A stretch of 64,000 bases of DNA from Fodinicurvata sp. EGI_FJ10296 (GTDB lineage: Bacteria > Pseudomonadota > Alphaproteobacteria > DSM-16000 > Inquilinaceae): NCBI RefSeq assembly GCF_040712075.1, contig NZ_JBFCVL010000002.1, forward strand, positions 62,001-126,000, given 5' to 3'. A program made the translations under genes and the position numbers. Shown here piece after piece: positions 10,448 through 42,881 of this stretch; position 1 is the stretch's first letter; the number at the start of each line of letters is the position of its first letter. Under the pieces are notes generated by a model, which was not told where the DNA came from, ran no database searches, and saw only the letters and a program-made list of their open reading frames with translations.

Positions 10448-11311
10448 TTAAAAGTATTTTTTTAATCTTCTTCTAGAATTACTTTTCATTCTATAAAACT
10501 CTGCTTTTTGTTCGCGTTCCATATACATCTGTTCACAATCTTCAATTAAATCTTTCGCTCTGTTGAAATCAATCATCTTTTCGTAAGACATTATTTTTGC
10601 GAGGCTATCTAATGCAAACAACTTTGCGTTCTCTAATTCTCTATTTTCCTCTCTTTTCACTCTCTCTCTCGAAACGCTATTTAAAGATTTTGGTAGTGGA
10701 AAAATAATAAATATAGATCCGATGAACGCAATCACCATGATAATATAAATTTCAAAATGAAATCCCACTCCAAACATTAGAAACAGAAACAATCCGTATT
10801 TACCCCGATTATGAATCGTTTCCTGAAATTCTGTATTATGATTTTCAATATCCTCTTTTGTGGCGCTCAATTCATAATTTACTTTCGTCATATATACGTC
10901 GATGAATTCTTCTTGACGACTTCTTTTTAGATTGAGCGCGTAGGTCAGTAATCCGACTTCGGGTCCCTCGGCGCGGCTTTTAGAGTTGTACCCTTCTAGA
11001 AAACTATTAAGTTTGTCGATCCAAAATTGCTCTTTATTTCGCAACGTTTTTATATCTGAATCATTTGTTAATTCTTCAAGAATTGAAACTGACAATCCAG
11101 AGCTATTTTTATTGAATTCCGACTGTAGTTTGACAGAGTGATGCTTATTATTTATAAGCTCATAATAGTGCTTACGTATTCTGTCATACAGATTAGTCGT
11201 TGATCCAACGTAATTTTTTCCATCATCAGAATGGATAGAGTAAACGCAATACCCATATCGTTGTTTCGACATATTATGATCACGACAGAATTCATCTATG
11301 TTCTTGCTCAT
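10448..11311 (-). CDS. AT-rich GIY-YIG domain protein with membrane hairpin (cargo gene)
   Basis: This 287-residue protein starts MSKNIDEFCRDHNMSKQRYG. Residues 19 to about 100 match a GIY-YIG nuclease fold: GYCVYSIHSDD, then KNYVGSTTNLYDRIRKHY with the expected Tyr, Gly and Arg, and a helical NKEQFWIDKLNS. About residues 165 to 205 hold two hydrophobic segments (GLFLFLMFGVGFHFEIYIIM and VIAFIGSIFIIFPL) that could form a membrane hairpin; a basic helical tail follows. An AGAGGA ribosome site precedes ATG 11311. The gene and its flanks (about 10,300 to 11,360) are strongly AT-rich in GC-rich tail DNA and separate spike V from the PAAR tip. Function is unknown; a membrane-anchored nuclease for exclusion or defence is one possibility. 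Confidence 0.75.
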   Translation of the reverse strand: MSKNIDEFCRDHNMSKQRYGYCVYSIHSDDGKNYVGSTTNLYDRIRKHYYELINNKHHSVKLQSEFNKNSSGLSVSILEELTNDSDIKTLRNKEQFWIDKLNSFLEGYNSKSRAEGPEVGLLTYALNLKRSRQEEFIDVYMTKVNYELSATKEDIENHNTEFQETIHNRGKYGLFLFLMFGVGFHFEIYIIMVIAFIGSIFIIFPLPKSLNSVSRERVKREENRELENAKLFALDSLAKIMSYEKMIDFNRAKDLIEDCEQMYMEREQKAEFYRMKSNSRRRLKKYF

Positions 11312-20998: not shown

Positions 20999-22376
20999 TG
21001 TCGGTGACACGTGATCTGTCCGTGGTTTGTAACAAGTGATCTGTCCGGTTTAATGGCCACCCTTGGCATTGAGGTGTGGGCGCATGAGACGGACGGAGGT
21101 GTTGCAAGGGATCCGGGAGATGCGGTTCGAGGAAATCAGAGATCGCTTTGTCGGTGGTCGTTTGAGTTCGGCGGAAGCGGCCGAATGGCTTGGGGTAACG
21201 GAGCGGACGTTCCGCCGCCATCGTGCTCGGTTTGAGTCGGAAGGTCCTTCAGGGCTCTTGGACCGTCGCCTGGGCAAAGTGAGCCCGCATCGGATCGGCG
21301 CGGATGAAGTGGATCGGGTGGTATCGCTGTATCGGGATCGTTATGGCGGGTGGACGGTGAAGCACTTCCATGAGCGGGCTCGCGAGAAGCACGGTCTGAC
21401 GGCCAGCTATGGCTGGACGAAAAGTGTTTTGCAGGCCTCGGGTTTGGTTCGTCCGGCGGCGAGGCGTTCAGCCCACCGCAAGAAGCGAGCGCGCAAGCCG
21501 GTCCCGGGAATGATGTTGCACCAGGACGGCTCTCGACACCTTTGGGTAGCGGATCTGGGGCGGCAGATAGATCTGATCGTGACGCTGGATGATGCGACCA
21601 GTACGATCTATTCGGCGTTTCTGGTGGACGAGGAGGGAACGGCTTCCAGCTTCAGGGGTGTGCAGCAAACCATTCTTGGCCACGGCTTGTTCTGTTCCCT
21701 CTACACCGACCGGGGAAGCCATTATTTCTACACGCCCAAGGCCGGAGAAGCGGTCGATAAAACCCGCCTGACCCAATTTGGCCGCGCCCTGAAGCAGTTG
21801 GGCATCCGCCATATTCCGGCTTATTCGCCGGAGGCGCGAGGCCGGTCGGAACGCATGTTCGCGACCCTGCAAGACCGTCTGGTGAAGGAGCTGGCCGATG
21901 CCGGGATAACAACGATCGAGGCGGCGAACCGGTTTATCGAAGACATCTATCTGCCGGCACACAACCAGCGCTTTGCCGTTGAGGCAACAGAGCCAGGCAC
22001 CGCACTGTTGCCGTGGGCGGGCGCCGATCTTTCGGAGATTCTCTGCCTGCAGGACGACCGCATCGTCGGCAATGACAACACCGTCAGCTATGGCAAGCTC
22101 AAACTCCAGATCGAACCCAGCCCATGGCGGGCGCATTTCGTAAAGACGACCGTTCAGGTTCGGCGCTATGCCGACGATACCATCGCGATCTTCTACGGGC
22201 CGAGATGCATCGGGCGCTATTGTCCGGATGGCACATTGATCGGCCACCAGGAGCAGGCGGCGTGACACGCTTCCACGCCGCCGATCCGGTCCGGGGGCAT
22301 GCCCCCGGACCGGATCGTGAACGAAGCGGACAATTGACGTGTTACAAAAGCCGGACAACTTAGCTTGTTACCGACA
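20999..22376 (+). mobile_element. insertion sequence of the ISNCY / IS1202 type, 1378 bp
   Basis: The left end starts TGTCGGTGACACGTGATC and the right end, read inward, starts TGTCGGTAACAAGCTAAG; the match continues for about 48 nt with scattered differences. Each end contains two tandem copies of a unit like GTAACAAGTGATCTGTCCG, likely transposase-binding sites. One transposase gene fills the element. A 17-bp duplication flanks it. Long duplications are known for IS1202. The element appears intact. Confidence 0.85.
21084..22265 (+). CDS. ISNCY-family DDE transposase
   Basis: This 393-residue protein starts MRRTEVLQGIREMRFEEIRD. It has an N-terminal HTH (LSSAEAAEWLGVTERTFRRH) and a DDE catalytic core: Asp in LHQDGSRHLW or LIVTLDDATS, Asp in SLYTDRGSHYF, and Glu in EARGRSERMFATLQ. 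The C-terminal segment has NDNTVSYGKLKLQI. All expected catalytic regions are present and the frame is uninterrupted, so the element may be active. A TTG start at 21063 would add seven residues but is less likely. Confidence 0.88.
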   Translation: MRRTEVLQGIREMRFEEIRDRFVGGRLSSAEAAEWLGVTERTFRRHRARFESEGPSGLLDRRLGKVSPHRIGADEVDRVVSLYRDRYGGWTVKHFHERAREKHGLTASYGWTKSVLQASGLVRPAARRSAHRKKRARKPVPGMMLHQDGSRHLWVADLGRQIDLIVTLDDATSTIYSAFLVDEEGTASSFRGVQQTILGHGLFCSLYTDRGSHYFYTPKAGEAVDKTRLTQFGRALKQLGIRHIPAYSPEARGRSERMFATLQDRLVKELADAGITTIEAANRFIEDIYLPAHNQRFAVEATEPGTALLPWAGADLSEILCLQDDRIVGNDNTVSYGKLKLQIEPSPWRAHFVKTTVQVRRYADDTIAIFYGPRCIGRYCPDGTLIGHQEQAA

Positions 22377-28670: not shown

Positions 28671-29354
28671 TCATTTGCACGACTCCCGCAGCACGACGCG
28701 TCCCAGGGCGATGCATTCCTCGTACACGGGCAACCCGTGCTGCGGATCGATGCCGGCATAGCGGACGACCTTGCGGTCCCCGAAGATGCCGCCGTCGTCG
28801 GGTATGTGGACCATCAAACCGTCGAGGACCATCAGCTTCGGCGTGTCATTGCCGGGCCGGGGCATCATCGCCACGATGCCGTCCTTGCAGTTGATTGATT
28901 CCAGCCGGGAGTCGAAATAGACCAGCTCGCCGCCCATGCGGATGTAGCCGAAGCCATTCAGCGGATCGGCCGGGTGGTCTTCCAGCTTTCGGGGATCTTC
29001 GGCGTCGCCCTGCCGATACGCCATGTAGACGTCGATGACTTCCTTGCGGACGGCGGCGGCCTGCGGCGTGCGGGCCAGCATGCAGATCAGCAGCGTCTGG
29101 CCTTCGTTCAGGCGGTATTCGCGGCCAGGACGGCCGCGGCCCTTGGGTTCGGTATTTTGCGCCACGGTGGCGCAAATTCCACCATAGCTTTCCAGCTCTT
29201 TGGAATGGCGCTCGACAAGCTTGCGAATGTCGCGCGGCCGATCGAAGCCAAGCCGCTCGGCGATCCTTAGATCTTCTATCCTTGGTTCGCCATCTAAGGT
29301 TGTAATATCGGATACAGAAAGTGCGGACGCAGTGGTTGCGTTGCTGCCGGACAT
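28671..29354 (-). CDS. Rha-like phage regulatory protein / antirepressor
   Basis: This 227-residue protein starts MSGSNATTASALSVSDITTL and has GAGGAG 7 nt upstream. The N-terminal part (RIAERLGFDRPRDIRKLVER) and REYRLNEGQTLLICMLARTP QAAAVRKEVIDVYMAYRQG are characteristic of Rha/antirepressor N-terminal DNA-binding domains. The C-terminal part is of a different fold (IRMGGELVYFDSRLESINC). Such proteins counteract repressors or regulate lysogeny. With a repressor that seems unable to self-cleave, an antirepressor route to induction is relevant. Confidence 0.72.
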   Translation of the reverse strand: MSGSNATTASALSVSDITTLDGEPRIEDLRIAERLGFDRPRDIRKLVERHSKELESYGGICATVAQNTEPKGRGRPGREYRLNEGQTLLICMLARTPQAAAVRKEVIDVYMAYRQGDAEDPRKLEDHPADPLNGFGYIRMGGELVYFDSRLESINCKDGIVAMMPRPGNDTPKLMVLDGLMVHIPDDGGIFGDRKVVRYAGIDPQHGLPVYEECIALGRVVLRESCK

Positions 29355-29654
29355 GGTGGCGCTCCTCGTGCCTCGAATGGCCGGAACGACACCGCTTTTG
29401 AAGGCACTGGCGCTCCGGGGGTTCAAAAACCGGCACGAGTCGGCCCAACGCGCCTTTAGGCCTAAGCCTTGGACATGCGCGCGTTGCCCCCGGAACATGG
29501 GAAATAGGTTACCGCTATCGGGGCGGGTTCCGCTCGTGTTCGGAGTTTTGAAGCTCCAAGCACGGACGGTACCCACGTCGTTTTTGGATTGCAAGCCCGA
29601 CAGCTTCGCCATCCGGCAGTTGACGTTCGAACACATGTGTTCGATGCTACGGCC
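29355..29654. promoter_or_regulatory. 300-nt divergent non-coding region between regulator and HicB-like gene
   Basis: The region holds no credible gene. It must contain the promoters of the two divergent genes. Near its right end lies a TTGACG hexamer (29620) overlapping a 16-nt perfect palindrome. The rest has no obvious repeats. Confidence 0.5.
29628..29643. promoter_or_regulatory. 16-bp perfect palindrome, probable autoregulatory operator
   Basis: CGAACACATGTGTTCG is perfectly self-complementary. It lies three nt after a TTGACG -35-like hexamer and 11 nt before the ATG of the HicB-like gene, where a repressor would block the promoter. HicB-type proteins commonly regulate their own promoter, so the neighbour is the likely ligand. 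Confidence 0.55.
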
Positions 29655-30089
29655 ATGACCAGATTTGACTATCCGTGCACGATCAAGGCGGACCCGGATG
29701 GCGGATTCCGGATCCGCTTTCCCGACATCCCCGAAGCGATCAGCGAAGCTGATACGCGGAACGAGGTCAACGCCATGGCGGTTGATGCCCTGATCGCCGC
29801 GTTGAGCTTCTATATCGATGCGCGCGAGACGCTGCCCGAACCGTCTCCAGCCCAGGCCGATCAGGTGTTGGTTGGCGCGCCGCCGCTGACTGCGGCCAAA
29901 CTGGCGCTTTACCAAGCCATGCGTGAACAGCGGGTGACGAATGTGGAACTGGCCCGGCGATTGGGCGTCAGCGAGACTGTCGTCCGCCGCCTGCTTGACC
30001 TGGATCATCGAAGCCATATTGGCCAGCTCGATCAGGCCCTGTCCGCCCTGGGGCGTCGTATGGTGGTCACGGTTCAACCGGCGGCATGA
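29655..30089 (+). CDS. solitary HicB-like antitoxin with C-terminal HTH
   Basis: This 144-residue protein starts MTRFDYPCTIKADPDGGFRI. The N-terminal half is a degenerate RNase H-like HicB fold (RFPDIPEAISEADTRNEVNA and DALIAALSFYIDARETLPEP). The C-terminal part has an HTH (TNVELARRLGVSETVVRRLL). A HicA toxin gene was looked for on both sides and not found. No Shine-Dalgarno sequence precedes the ATG, and the promoter-like elements are close enough for a leaderless mRNA. It opposes the early genes and ends 11 nt before the end of the VRR-NUC gene. Confidence 0.8.
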   Translation: MTRFDYPCTIKADPDGGFRIRFPDIPEAISEADTRNEVNAMAVDALIAALSFYIDARETLPEPSPAQADQVLVGAPPLTAAKLALYQAMREQRVTNVELARRLGVSETVVRRLLDLDHRSHIGQLDQALSALGRRMVVTVQPAA

Positions 30090-34698: not shown

Positions 34699-34956
34699 TC
34701 ATAGGCCGGCCTGTTGGGATCTGGTGGATTGCGAAGCACGAGACACCAGCGAGGCTGCGGCAATCCGGCCAAGGCGCATGAGAGTGACACCTTCGATGCC
34801 ACGGTGCTGGGCCCCATTGACCAGGGCGAGCCAGTAGGCCCCCGGAATGGAGTTCCGCTTGCACCACATCCGAGCGGCGCCGACGGTCACGCCTGCGTCA
34901 TGTGCGAACTCGGCAAGGGTGGGCCATGCCTCAGCGATGTCATAGATCGTGTTCAT
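34699..34956 (-). CDS. Cro-like DNA-binding protein
   Basis: This 85-residue protein starts MNTIYDIAEAWPTLAEFAHD. An HTH is visible in TLAEFAHDAGVTVGAARMWC KRNSIPG, followed by ...WLALVNGAQHRGIEGVTLMR L, as in Cro-like and YdaS-like regulators. It diverges from the CI-like gene across a 96-nt region with inverted repeats, so it should be the lytic-side repressor and first gene of the early operon. Confidence 0.75.
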   Translation of the reverse strand: MNTIYDIAEAWPTLAEFAHDAGVTVGAARMWCKRNSIPGAYWLALVNGAQHRGIEGVTLMRLGRIAAASLVSRASQSTRSQQAGL

Positions 34957-35052: not shown

Positions 35053-35766
35053 ATGACGAATTATCCAAGCACTCCGTACGACCGGCTGCAACTTGCGCGA
35101 CGCAAGGCGGGCTTTCGGTCGGCCAACGATGCGGCCCTGGCTCATGGGTGGACCATCAGCACTTATCGGTCGCATGAGAACGGCCAGCGCGGCATGAAGC
35201 TCGACGCCGCCGAAAGGTATGCCCGAGCCTACCGCGTCTCTGCTGCATGGTTGCTGACGGGTGAAGGCGCAGTTACTTCGAACTCAAACGAAAATAAATC
35301 GTCCGGCGATCAAGAAATTATAAACGAATACCTTGGCATATCCCGAGTCCCGATAATTGGCGACGCAGCGCCAGGAGTATGGTGCTCTGTATATGACGAG
35401 GGTAAAGTGGAATATCTGCATATTCCGATCGTTCCGAACAAGCCACAGCCAGATTTCGCTGTTCGGTCGGTCGGCCCGGGAATGAACCGTTCTTATAGTG
35501 AAGGAACTATTCTTGTGTGTGGCAATGCGGACGGCCCGCTTGGCCCGCCCCGCAATGGCGAGCATGTTGTCGCCGAACGCCGGGATGGCGATCTCGTCGA
35601 ACGCCGAGTCGCTCAGTACACGATAGACGGCGACGGCGAGCGCAAATGGCTGTGGCCGAATTCCGACCACCGCGACCACCAGGCGCCGCTGCCCGTCGAC
35701 CGTGACGATCTCAAGATTCGGGGAATCGTTGTTGCCGAGTACCGGCCGGTCCTGAACCGCGACTGA
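35053..35766 (+). CDS. CI-like phage repressor with altered S24 catalytic site
   Basis: This 237-residue protein starts MTNYPSTPYDRLQLARRKAG. Residues 8 to about 70 form an Xre HTH (FRSANDAALAHGWTISTYRS and AYRVSAAWLLTGEG). The C-terminal half is an S24/LexA-like fold (VPIIGDAAPGVW ... FAVRSVGPGMNRSYSEGTIL ... GEHVVAERRDGDLVERRV). Homologues have G-x-S-M at the nucleophile; here it is GPGM, with Gly143. The Lys expected near residue 183 is Glu/Arg. RecA-stimulated self-cleavage is therefore unlikely. It should maintain lysogeny. It ends 15 nt before the end of the ImmA-like gene. Confidence 0.85.
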   Translation: MTNYPSTPYDRLQLARRKAGFRSANDAALAHGWTISTYRSHENGQRGMKLDAAERYARAYRVSAAWLLTGEGAVTSNSNENKSSGDQEIINEYLGISRVPIIGDAAPGVWCSVYDEGKVEYLHIPIVPNKPQPDFAVRSVGPGMNRSYSEGTILVCGNADGPLGPPRNGEHVVAERRDGDLVERRVAQYTIDGDGERKWLWPNSDHRDHQAPLPVDRDDLKIRGIVVAEYRPVLNRD

Positions 35767-35781
35767 TCGCGGCGCAGGGCG

Positions 35782-36279
35782 TCAGTTTTCGACGGGTACG
35801 CCGAGCCGGATCGATAGTGCGCTTTCCGATACGTCCAGTTCGTCGGCAAGGCTCTTCACGGACCATTCCTGCGGCGGATGACGGTTGATCAGTTTCCACG
35901 GCATTAGAATATCCGCCGCCAATTGATTGGCTTGGGTCTCCTGGCGATTGCGCAGCGAGCTGCGATATAGGCTGTCATCGGTAATACCGTCGCCTATCAG
36001 ATCCTGATGCAGGATGTAGTGCGCGATTTCGTGGGCAATCGTAAACCGCTGCCGCTTCGGGGAATGATCGGCATTGATAAAGATGGCATAGCCACTTTCA
36101 CCGCCGCGTTTCTCATCCCGACGAATGGATCCGGAAACGTCCGGCTGCCAATCGTTCACCTTGTAAACCCGCAGCCCGAGACGATGGGCGATATCCAGCA
36201 CATTCACGGGGGCCGTGTCCTGAAACTCTTGCAGGACGCCAAGTCTGACTTGAATGGTCTGAGATGAAATCTGAAGCAT
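35782..36279 (-). CDS. ImmA/IrrE-type metallo-endopeptidase
   Basis: This 165-residue protein starts MLQISSQTIQVRLGVLQEFQ. The zinc motif HExxH is RFTIAHEIAHYILH (about residues 80 to 93), and the third ligand region is ETQANQLAADILMP. The C-terminal part (SVKSLADELDVSESALSIRL GV) is the usual ImmA tail. In ICEBs1, ImmA cleaves the repressor ImmR to allow induction. Here the gene lies tail to tail with the CI-like gene, whose own cleavage site is defective. That functional link is inferred. Confidence 0.88.
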   Translation of the reverse strand: MLQISSQTIQVRLGVLQEFQDTAPVNVLDIAHRLGLRVYKVNDWQPDVSGSIRRDEKRGGESGYAIFINADHSPKRQRFTIAHEIAHYILHQDLIGDGITDDSLYRSSLRNRQETQANQLAADILMPWKLINRHPPQEWSVKSLADELDVSESALSIRLGVPVEN

Positions 36280-36401: not shown

Positions 36402-36785
36402 TTAAGTACGACCATTTAAATATGAAAATATATTTTTTGATAAAACTCGTGTATATAAATAAATTCTTACTATAATACCCATAATTCCTATTATTATAGC
36501 GGCGAAAGTCATAATCACCATATTAAAACCAAAAATTAAAGATACCAATACTGGAAAGAAGAAAATTAGTGAAGCTAAATTTACAGAATCATCAAAGTAA
36601 AATAAAAATAAGCTCATTACAATTGCGGTATATAAGCTTATAATAACGTTCATTATATATGATTCTATTGGTTCTTGACTAAATAATGCATCCACAATAT
36701 TCAATAGCGCAACCTTTATTCTCATAAATTTTTCCTCGTTTGGTGATCCATATATATAAACATTTACTGCTTTCTTTTCGGTCAT
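36402..36785 (-). CDS. AT-rich membrane protein (cargo gene)
   Basis: This 127-residue protein starts MTEKKAVNVYIYGSPNEEKF. Two or three hydrophobic stretches (IIMNVIISLYTAIVMSLFLF-like, LIFFFPVLVSLIFGFNMVIM and FAAIIIGIMGIIVRIYLY) indicate an inner membrane protein. The gene and 120 nt on its 3' side are AT-rich. No family was recognised. It lies behind the ImmA-like gene, near the switch region, where superinfection exclusion genes often are. Confidence 0.6.
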   Translation of the reverse strand: MTEKKAVNVYIYGSPNEEKFMRIKVALLNIVDALFSQEPIESYIMNVIISLYTAIVMSLFLFYFDDSVNLASLIFFFPVLVSLIFGFNMVIMTFAAIIIGIMGIIVRIYLYTRVLSKNIFSYLNGRT

Positions 36786-37031: not shown

Positions 37032-37429
37032 CCATTGACAATTGCTGCCGAAGGCTCTTCCGCCGAAAAACATATTTCATCGGAATTTCGAGCGGCCGTT
37101 ACGGGACGGCCTTTTGGAACATGCGCCTTGACCAAGACTGCCAAAGGCAATCCCCATAACCTTCATCGCCGCAATTTATGACCAATCACGAGCATTCCGA
37201 ACATGCCGGTCGTTAGGTTGCACGCCTGTTTCGTATTCCCGCTCGCCTCCTAGAGGTATGACGTTTTGCATTCTTATGATCGCAGCCGATACAGAATGTG
37301 ACATTTCGTGTTGACACCCGAGGAACGCTTTTCGTATCCATTGTCACTACCATTTGTTGCGTTATCCAGAATGAGCCGCCCTCACTGGATGCAGTTGTCC
37401 AGTTTGAAGGCAAAACACAACGGCCGCCC
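37032..37429 (+). promoter_or_regulatory. non-coding region with promoter for the recombination operon
   Basis: About 400 nt with no credible gene. TTGACA at 37311 to 37316, followed 17 to 18 nt later by GTATCC/TATCCA (37334 to 37340), is a plausible sigma-70-type promoter. It supports the start of the nuclease gene at 37430 rather than at an earlier in-frame ATG (37298), which lies upstream of it. Confidence 0.4.
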
Positions 37430-41577: not shown

Positions 41578-41883
41578 ATGCCAGACGCGTCTTCCAGTTC
41601 TGAGAACCGCCTTCTTTACTCCCAGCGCGAAGCCGCCAGCCGATTGGGCGTTGGCGAAAGGATATTGCGCGATGAGGTCAAAGCGGGCAACCTAACTTAC
41701 GTTCTGGTCGGGCGTCGCCGCTTCTTTGCGGATAGTGATTTGCAATCATTCATTGAGCGGAGGCGCGTGCCATGCCCCTCTATCGACGCAAAGACTCGGC
41801 CCACTGGTGGTACAACTTCACGGTCCAAGGTCGTCGGTTTCGCGGAAGCACTGAGACAGACCAAAAAGAAGTCGCGGAGATAG
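41578..41883 (+). CDS. excisionase-like HTH protein
   Basis: This 101-residue protein starts MPDASSSSENRLLYSQREAA. The MerR/AlpA-type HTH (SQREAASRLGVGERILRDEV KAGNLTYVLVGRRRFFADSD L) is that of DNA-binding excisionase-family proteins. Its 3' end overlaps the integrase gene by 112 nt in another frame. In phages this combination drives integration and excision direction. Confidence 0.78.
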   Translation: MPDASSSSENRLLYSQREAASRLGVGERILRDEVKAGNLTYVLVGRRRFFADSDLQSFIERRRVPCPSIDAKTRPTGGTTSRSKVVGFAEALRQTKKKSRR

Positions 41884-42881
41884 TTGAGGCGCGTCTCAAG
41901 GCCCAGTTGATCGTCGATCACCACACCGGACGCAAGCCAACGATGACCCTTGACGAGGCGTTCGGCCGGTACTGGATCGAAATCGCCCATCGTCAGTCCA
42001 GCGCATCGGATACCGAGCGCCAATCCGGGGTTATTCTCAAAATCCTGGGGGGCGGGACGAATCTCGACAAGGTGAACAACGCTGCCGTCGCCCGCATGGT
42101 CGCCGAGCTGCGCGGCAAGATGTCCGACAGTTCCGCGAATCGGCACACCGAACTTCTGCGGCGCGTCCTGCGCCGAGCGCGGGACATATGGGAAGCGCAG
42201 GTTTCCATGCCGGATTGGAAATCGATGTTGCTCCAGGAGCCGGCGCCGCGCGATCGGACCCTTAGCGAATCGGAGGAATTCCGGTTGCTGAATGCGATTC
42301 GGCAGGACTTCCGCCCGATGATACTGTTCGCACTCCTGGCCGGGGTCAGGGTGTCGAACGCCCGGACACTGACATGGCGTCAGGTCGATCTCGATGCTGC
42401 CGTTATCTCGTTCAAGGTGAAGTCACGTCGTCCCGGTGGCGAGACGCATACGCTTCCGATCTCGAATGAGATCCGAGCCATTCTCTCGCGGGAGCGTGGT
42501 CGCCACGACACCTATGTCTTCACGTATGAATGCGCCAAGAACCGGCACGATCCGAAACGCGGCAAGATCCAGAAGAAGGGCGAGCGGCGCCCCTTCACGC
42601 GGGATGGATGGCGACGTGAATGGCGACGTGCTCTGGCGACGGCCGACATAGAAGATTTCCGGTTCCACGACCTGCGCCATACGTTCGGAACGCGGATGCT
42701 GCGTCAGACTGGGAACCTGCGACTGGTCCAACGCCTGCTCGGTCACCGTGACATACAGTCGACGCTTCGCTACGCGAATTCGGACCTCAATGACGCCCGC
42801 GCCGCTATGGAAGCCATGTCACGGACTCGTCACGCCGACGACAGTACAGTGGATAAAGATCAGAAGGAATCAACCGGTTAG
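41772..42881 (+). CDS. int: phage tyrosine integrase
   Basis: This 369-residue protein starts MPLYRRKDSAHWWYNFTVQG, with an N-terminal arm-binding domain, a SAM-like core and a catalytic domain. Catalytic residues are Arg in LLAGVRVSNARTL, Lys in the ISFKVKSRRPGGETH strand, His-x-x-Arg in FHDLRHTFGTRM, His in RLLGHRDIQSTLRYA and Tyr in the same segment. The stop is 18 nt before the tRNA-Pro fragment that marks the attachment site. Confidence 0.92.
   Translation: MPLYRRKDSAHWWYNFTVQGRRFRGSTETDQKEVAEIVEARLKAQLIVDHHTGRKPTMTLDEAFGRYWIEIAHRQSSASDTERQSGVILKILGGGTNLDKVNNAAVARMVAELRGKMSDSSANRHTELLRRVLRRARDIWEAQVSMPDWKSMLLQEPAPRDRTLSESEEFRLLNAIRQDFRPMILFALLAGVRVSNARTLTWRQVDLDAAVISFKVKSRRPGGETHTLPISNEIRAILSRERGRHDTYVFTYECAKNRHDPKRGKIQKKGERRPFTRDGWRREWRRALATADIEDFRFHDLRHTFGTRMLRQTGNLRLVQRLLGHRDIQSTLRYANSDLNDARAAMEAMSRTRHADDSTVDKDQKESTG

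Follow-up and report, generated by a model that had tools for sequence, protein, structure and literature searches.

A phage repressor stripped of its self-cleavage elements lies tail to tail with an ImmA protease proposed to belong to a RosmerTA-type cassette

The window – the whole stretch of 64,000 nucleotides that was analysed, C2:62001-126000 of a 4.83 Mb host genome – holds a prophage with genes for terminase, major head, tail and baseplate, for primase, helicase and a VRR nuclease, and for exonuclease, RecT and integrase. Within this prophage, a cI-like repressor gene diverges from a small Cro-like gene on one side and converges on the other with a gene for a stand-alone ImmA protease, the two stop codons lying 15 bases apart (Table 1). 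We examined the cI/cro gap for an operator and found a repeat that is operator-like yet not convincing. On the same strand as immA and 122 bases upstream of it, an open reading frame for a predicted membrane protein occupies an AT-rich patch of ~27% G+C; the corresponding values are 51 to 64% over cI and immA and about 58 to 65% from position 37350 onward. An IS-type transposase gene (21063-22265, +) is present between the terminase and replication genes, and a GIY-YIG nuclease gene (10448-11311, -), possibly encoding a homing endonuclease, sits amid the tail/baseplate genes.

Table 1. Positions of the discussed genes, residues and sites within the window
Feature	Position	Strand	Evidence
Rha/Ant-like antirepressor candidate, left (lytic) gene run; start approximate	28674..29393	-	profile match
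LexA-box-like site (perfect GTTC-N7-GTTC), GTTCCGCTCGTGTTC, between Rha-like and HicB-like genes	29527..29541	+	pattern scan
Small Cro-like protein, divergent from cI	34699..34956	-	carph-isopro HTH match below cut-off
cI-like repressor, 237 aa: N-terminal HTH and C-terminal S24 fold	35053..35766	+	Pfam, profile search, AlphaFold model, alignment
Pro107-Gly108 (CCA GGA) at the CI scissile pair; Ala-Gly or Gly-Gly in most relatives	35371..35376	+	alignment
Gly143 (GGA, in GPGM) at the nucleophile Ser column of CI	35479..35481	+	alignment
Ala187 (GCT) at the catalytic Lys column of CI; VERRVAQY vs VEATVKEL	35611..35613	+	alignment
Stand-alone ImmA/IrrE-type metalloprotease (Peptidase_M78), 165 aa; proposed RosmerTA-type antitoxin	35782..36279	-	Pfam, alignment, PADLOC
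HEIAH zinc-binding/catalytic motif of ImmA, H83 to H87	36019..36033	-	alignment
127-aa protein, three membrane helices (simple hydropathy rule); proposed toxin partner	36402..36785	-	hydropathy, position
Tyrosine integrase of the prophage	41772..42881	+	profile match

A first-pass annotation of this DNA had proposed that CI keeps the S24 fold while both of its catalytic residues are replaced. Consistent with a retained fold, CI matches Pfam Peptidase_S24 at 31 bits (cut-off 23.3), and its AlphaFold model (pLDDT 81.8) aligns in VIA-align with the C-terminal domain of LexA (1jhe; Z 14.2, rmsd 2.5, 119 aligned) and with lambda CI (8gmu; Z 14.0, rmsd 2.7, 120 aligned). The top Foldseek matches of the model are the lambda-186 hybrid and 186 CI, with 2fjr and 7jvt among the best structures. 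A profile search of the PDB also matched lambda CI and LexA; a PDB search with the single sequence gave no match.

The catalytic residues were assessed in an alignment of 22 rows, the window's own included, in which one row lacks the C-terminal domain and the other 21, six of them from one genus, were compared. Across these 21 rows the nucleophile serine is kept in 19, the catalytic lysine in 17 and an Ala-Gly or Gly-Gly pair in 17. The window's CI has glycine in the first of these columns and alanine in the second, so both proposed replacements were borne out; the Pro-Gly at the scissile pair is a further change that the annotation had not listed. A sequencing error at codon 143, raised there as a way out, does not account for the substitution: no single base change makes GGA a serine codon or GCT a lysine codon, so one wrong base is no explanation. 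With serine, lysine and Ala-Gly site all missing, RecA-driven autocleavage of CI would be expected to fail, as the annotation had predicted.

The genome has two further prophage-like loci, whose sibling CIs are 50 and 43% identical, as aligned, to that of the window. All three proteins have Pro-Gly at the scissile pair and alanine in the lysine column, and their serine columns read Gly, Ser and Ala. Because they make up three of the four exceptions in the alignment, the three loci appear to form one lineage that has lost self-cleavage; the fourth exception (L014) retains serine, has arginine in place of lysine and is without Ala-Gly. All three CIs share the motifs AAPG, ERRVA and HRDH unchanged despite the modest overall identity, so the C-terminal domains look to be under selection and would keep some role, presumably in dimerisation or in contact with a regulator. 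Pattern scans for CI relatives in genome contigs and in viral contigs yielded none that could be confirmed. The lineage would represent a further case of an S24 fold kept for repression after loss of the protease.

The neighbouring gene was correctly named in the first pass as an ImmA-type metalloprotease. Its product matches Pfam Peptidase_M78 at E 7.3e-21, with the HExxH motif and the third ligand intact: H83, E84, H87 and Glu114 are invariant in 16 of 16 aligned sequences. In PADLOC it scores best against CapP of CBASS (5.9e-25), which is also the nearest solved structure; RmrA matches at 2.5e-12 over the protease part.

A search for ImmA in 289 genomes of the class gave 37 with a match at E ≤ 1e-20. 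At E ≤ 2e-38 there is a clade of 18 places, the window among them (one genus contributes three places, one genome two); the window's ImmA is a full member of this clade and 57% identical to that of L024. We observed that a small transmembrane (TM) protein of one family directly adjoins ImmA in all 17 clade places besides the window. L024 and L051 have a neighbour of the same family, which brings the association to 19 of 19 close ImmA relatives.

Since the TM family was first defined from ImmA neighbours, it is the leave-one-out and reciprocal tests that count. Each of the first 14 members was recovered in leave-one-out searches, with E-values of 2.5e-11 to 2.2e-19 (test set of ~170 proteins), and members outside the profile (L025 with L075-L077, L051 and L086) were found at 3.9e-10 to 6.1e-8. 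The reciprocal search with the TM profile hit 20 places in the 289 genomes, 17 of them strongly (E ≤ 3.5e-16), and all 17 lie beside ImmA; the other three comprise one place at a contig end (2.8e-7) and two weak matches in large frames (3.6e-4 and 9.3e-4). Extending the TM-profile search to 398 genomes of the phylum returned five matches at E ≤ 1e-6, three of them new and each of these three beside ImmA. The close relatives of ImmA thus belong to membrane-protein cassettes, and the two-TM family, with all 17 strong matches in 289 genomes beside ImmA, provides a concrete candidate set of defence toxins.

More distant ImmA loci are organised in other ways. The TM family is absent from ten stand-alone ImmA loci of this kind (L088-L096 and L098), although a different small TM gene follows immA in two of them; in three, an HTH gene precedes it. 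In another ImmA clade (L033, L040/L098, L095 and L096), the protease adjoins an ~400-aa protein with a DxVGST-like start, which we take to resemble a nucleotide cyclase; for the copies at L095 and L096, neither Pfam nor PADLOC gave a family match at E ≤ 0.01.

We also surveyed viral contigs, taking the best 80 of 356 confirmed ImmA-relative loci, L051 among them; 77 of these best 80 (71 distinct cores) carry a stand-alone ImmA. Within that sample the TM family (E ≤ 1e-4) adjoins 36 of the 77 and another TM protein 29 of the remaining 41 – 65 of 77 in total, under a rule for other TM proteins that is loose enough for 72 of 247 control genes (29%) to pass. A Pfam and PADLOC scan of 14 TM partners (the window's included, seven of them two-TM) and five more of the family revealed no shared Pfam or PADLOC 2.0.0 family, only scattered weak matches of single proteins. 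At L073, L079 and L084 the gene directly after the TM-ImmA pair encodes a Beta protein (PF14350), akin to components of gop-beta-cII and PD-lambda-2; the three genes may together form a defence operon.

At two loci, L055 and L054, TM-ImmA pairs of low G+C lie between ordinary chromosomal genes; the gene directly after the pair is presumably hisB-like in L055 and glmU-like in L054. This placement suggests that the pairs have been transferred outside phages too.

In the literature covered, a description of a TM-ImmA pair was found only in PMC10440598. There, the toxins of RosmerTA, RmrT, are described as diverse and their antitoxin, RmrA, as a protein with an ImmA domain; in Gordonia phage Kita the toxin D5 depolarises membranes and is only partly neutralised by its antitoxin, and the pair shields E. 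coli from some myoviruses (PMC10440598, available part). The window's ImmA finds Kita gp32, which scores 137 bits with an ImmA profile built without it, and the adjacent gp33, 119 aa long, has two helices at its C-terminal end. By position and description, rather than by accession, we identify gp32/gp33 as RmrA/RmrT_D5. Seven TM partners from the viral contigs join gp33 by single linkage at E ≤ 1e-3.

The window's own membrane-protein gene is the weakest link in this series. Its 127 codons exceed the longest ATG-initiated frame in 500 base shuffles of the AT-rich patch (99 aa), and the protein scores 1.0 bit against the TM family (E 3.4, no better than controls) and 2.6 bits in a later test. 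It shows no link to Kita gp33, has no match at E ≤ 1 among 50,697 phage records and matches only itself among the loci collected. The gene has the position of a toxin without the sequence of one – either a very diverged member or a different toxin.

On the far side of the repressor, we identified a candidate for a regulator of CI. The Rha-like gene matches the anti-repressor family phrog_63 at 3.9e-7 and has a weak Pfam match below the cut-off. A 63% relative is found ~4 kb from the sibling CI at L002; the third dead-CI locus, L003, has no comparable Rha match nearby.

Divergent from the Rha-like gene is a HicB-like antitoxin gene (PF15919, 1e-7; 29655-30089, +). The non-coding stretch between these two genes (29395-29590, -) agrees with positions 1500-1710 of a second prophage locus, L110, at 89% over 209 bases, and its folding surpasses that of shuffled sequences (z -2.48), of which 3 in 200 did as well. 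Full-length matches to sRNA-Xcc1 score 27.5 and 29.8 bits, below the family's threshold of 53. By eye, the copies show a trinucleotide and its complement changing together at three places, CAA/TTG/CAA versus AAC/GTT/AAC.

We favour, with a probability of roughly 60%, a reading in which the locus comprises two neighbouring, functionally separate units: a CI that is dead for self-cleavage and a RosmerTA-type cassette. The first would be a master repressor of the LexA/lambda-CI fold, unable to cut itself and belonging to the lineage of three loci in this genome. It would probably be released without cleavage by an antirepressor, by analogy with phage 186, and the Rha/Ant-like gene is the best candidate for that role. 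The second would be a lysogenic-cargo cassette lying tail to tail with cI, its membrane protein acting as a putative toxin and ImmA as the antitoxin. A toxin once freed would depolarise the membrane, and the lysogen would probably be defended in this way against other phages.

An unlikely variant holds that the dead CI is SOS-inducible through LexA control of the Rha-like antirepressor, with ImmA unrelated and working alone without the TM gene. The LexA-box-like site between the Rha-like and HicB-like genes, GTTCCGCTCGTGTTC, would fit such control, as would GTTTTTGTTTTGTTC, which nearly matches it and precedes the chosen start of the host lexA by about 70 to 80 bp. However, the window contains four LexA-box-like sites against 1.84 expected, a count that 14 of 100 shuffles reach and that is not above chance, and the sibling's site has one mismatch. 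A solitary ImmA also sits poorly with the viral survey (best 80 of 356 loci), where only 12 of 77 stand-alone ImmA loci are without a TM neighbour and a contig or locus end truncates six of those 12.

The first-pass annotation had instead proposed a switch run by a separate protease, in which ImmA cleaves the dead CI and so brings about induction, like ImmA with ImmR. MpaR with the Listeria CI-like repressor would be a further parallel, but we consider the switch unlikely. The genes are directly adjacent, the active site of ImmA is intact and DUF955 proteases that cut phage CI-like repressors are known (PMC6872733, available part), but cI and immA converge, unlike mpaR and its co-directional cI-like gene, and the regular partner of ImmA is the TM protein. 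The whole genome contains a single ImmA match at E ≤ 0.001 though it has three such CIs, and both sibling loci are without one. Covariance of the two genes in related prophages, a check that the annotation had suggested, was likewise not seen: an ImmA match was found in none of the 16 other CI-relative loci, siblings included (loci of 3 to 19 kb; L007-L011 lay outside the scan).

Within the best 80 of 356 viral loci, a CI-profile match occurs at most 3.5 kb from ImmA in 11. Six of these are S24 repressors (L051, L131, L142, L146, L171 and L196), which lends the protease model some support; the rest are HTH-ImmA fusion look-alikes (L144, L147 and L155) and HTH-only proteins (L141 and L182). All six ImmA-linked S24 repressors, however, have both serine and lysine, and intact homologues beside the same protease were what the annotation itself had named as evidence against its model. 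L146 has the convergent layout of the window together with an intact CI. At L051, cI, the TM gene and immA run in one direction and are probably transcribed together, so cI and the cassette may be linked in some way. Starting from the cassettes, a CI-like gene stands beside one of the 19 TM-ImmA pairs (L051), with a weak match 3.6 kb from another (L053), in flanks of mostly 1.5 kb. There is no sign of coupling between ImmA and self-cleavage-dead CIs. An ImmA gene beside a phage repressor is not by default that repressor's inducer; in these phages the gene usually forms one half of a cassette with a membrane protein, probably a toxin–antitoxin pair.

It is quite unlikely that the prophage is simply decaying, its CI active site lost by drift once induction was no longer needed and its ImmA a stray remnant. 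The IS-like transposase inside the prophage would suit decay, and the differing serine-column letters of the three CIs are what would be expected without selection, but the frames for terminase, major head, tail/baseplate, primase, helicase, exonuclease, RecT and integrase are all open and the three shared CI motifs have been conserved. Very unlikely, finally, is a hybrid in which an ImmA of cassette origin, no longer accompanied by the TM protein that normally goes with it, now serves to remove a CI lacking self-cleavage; if true, a toxin–antitoxin imbalance during infection by another phage would also trigger the prophage.

The favoured reading of two separate units can be set beside several known systems. 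CapP of CBASS is both the best PADLOC match and the best solved-structure match of the window's ImmA, but the match spans the protease part (15-159 of 165 with the PADLOC model), and no cyclase gene was recognised among the neighbours scanned. According to the available parts of the sources, PD-lambda-2 consists of a HigB-like protein, an Xre-ImmA protein and a P4 antitoxin-related (beta-like) protein (PMC9519451), and gop-beta-cII is a defence system (PMC9122126). These systems resemble the cassettes in bringing an ImmA domain and Beta together, as Beta follows TM-ImmA in three relatives. The window differs in having neither an Xre fusion nor a HigB-like partner and in carrying cI rather than Beta on the far side of immA.

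The idea that a protease may act on a phage CI is likewise an older one: MpaR, a DUF955 protease, acts on phage CI-like repressors in Listeria (PMC6872733, in the part available). As in ImmR-ImmA of ICEBs1 and in MpaR with its CI-like repressor (PMC6872733), an M78/DUF955 gene here adjoins a phage-type repressor gene; in both of those systems the protease is co-directional with the repressor, whereas in the window the two converge. A further difference is that, among relatives, the type of repressor does not predict whether the protease is there.

On the repressor side, the closest parallels are the Gifsy and phage 186 repressors, which are released by LexA-controlled antirepressors (PMC3121763 and PMC7708051, in their available parts). 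Like the Gifsy repressors and the 186 CI with its Tum, the window's CI, judged from its residues, would not be inactivated by self-cleavage (same sources and parts). The antirepressor in the window differs in being a Rha-like candidate, and LexA control, established there, is putative here.

On the protease side, the comparison is with RosmerTA. No similarity could be detected between the window's TM protein and Kita gp33, and the TM gene is upstream of immA in the window whereas in Kita it is downstream. In both, nonetheless, a phage encodes an ImmA-domain protein that stands alone and, next to it, a small membrane protein, which in the window is predicted.
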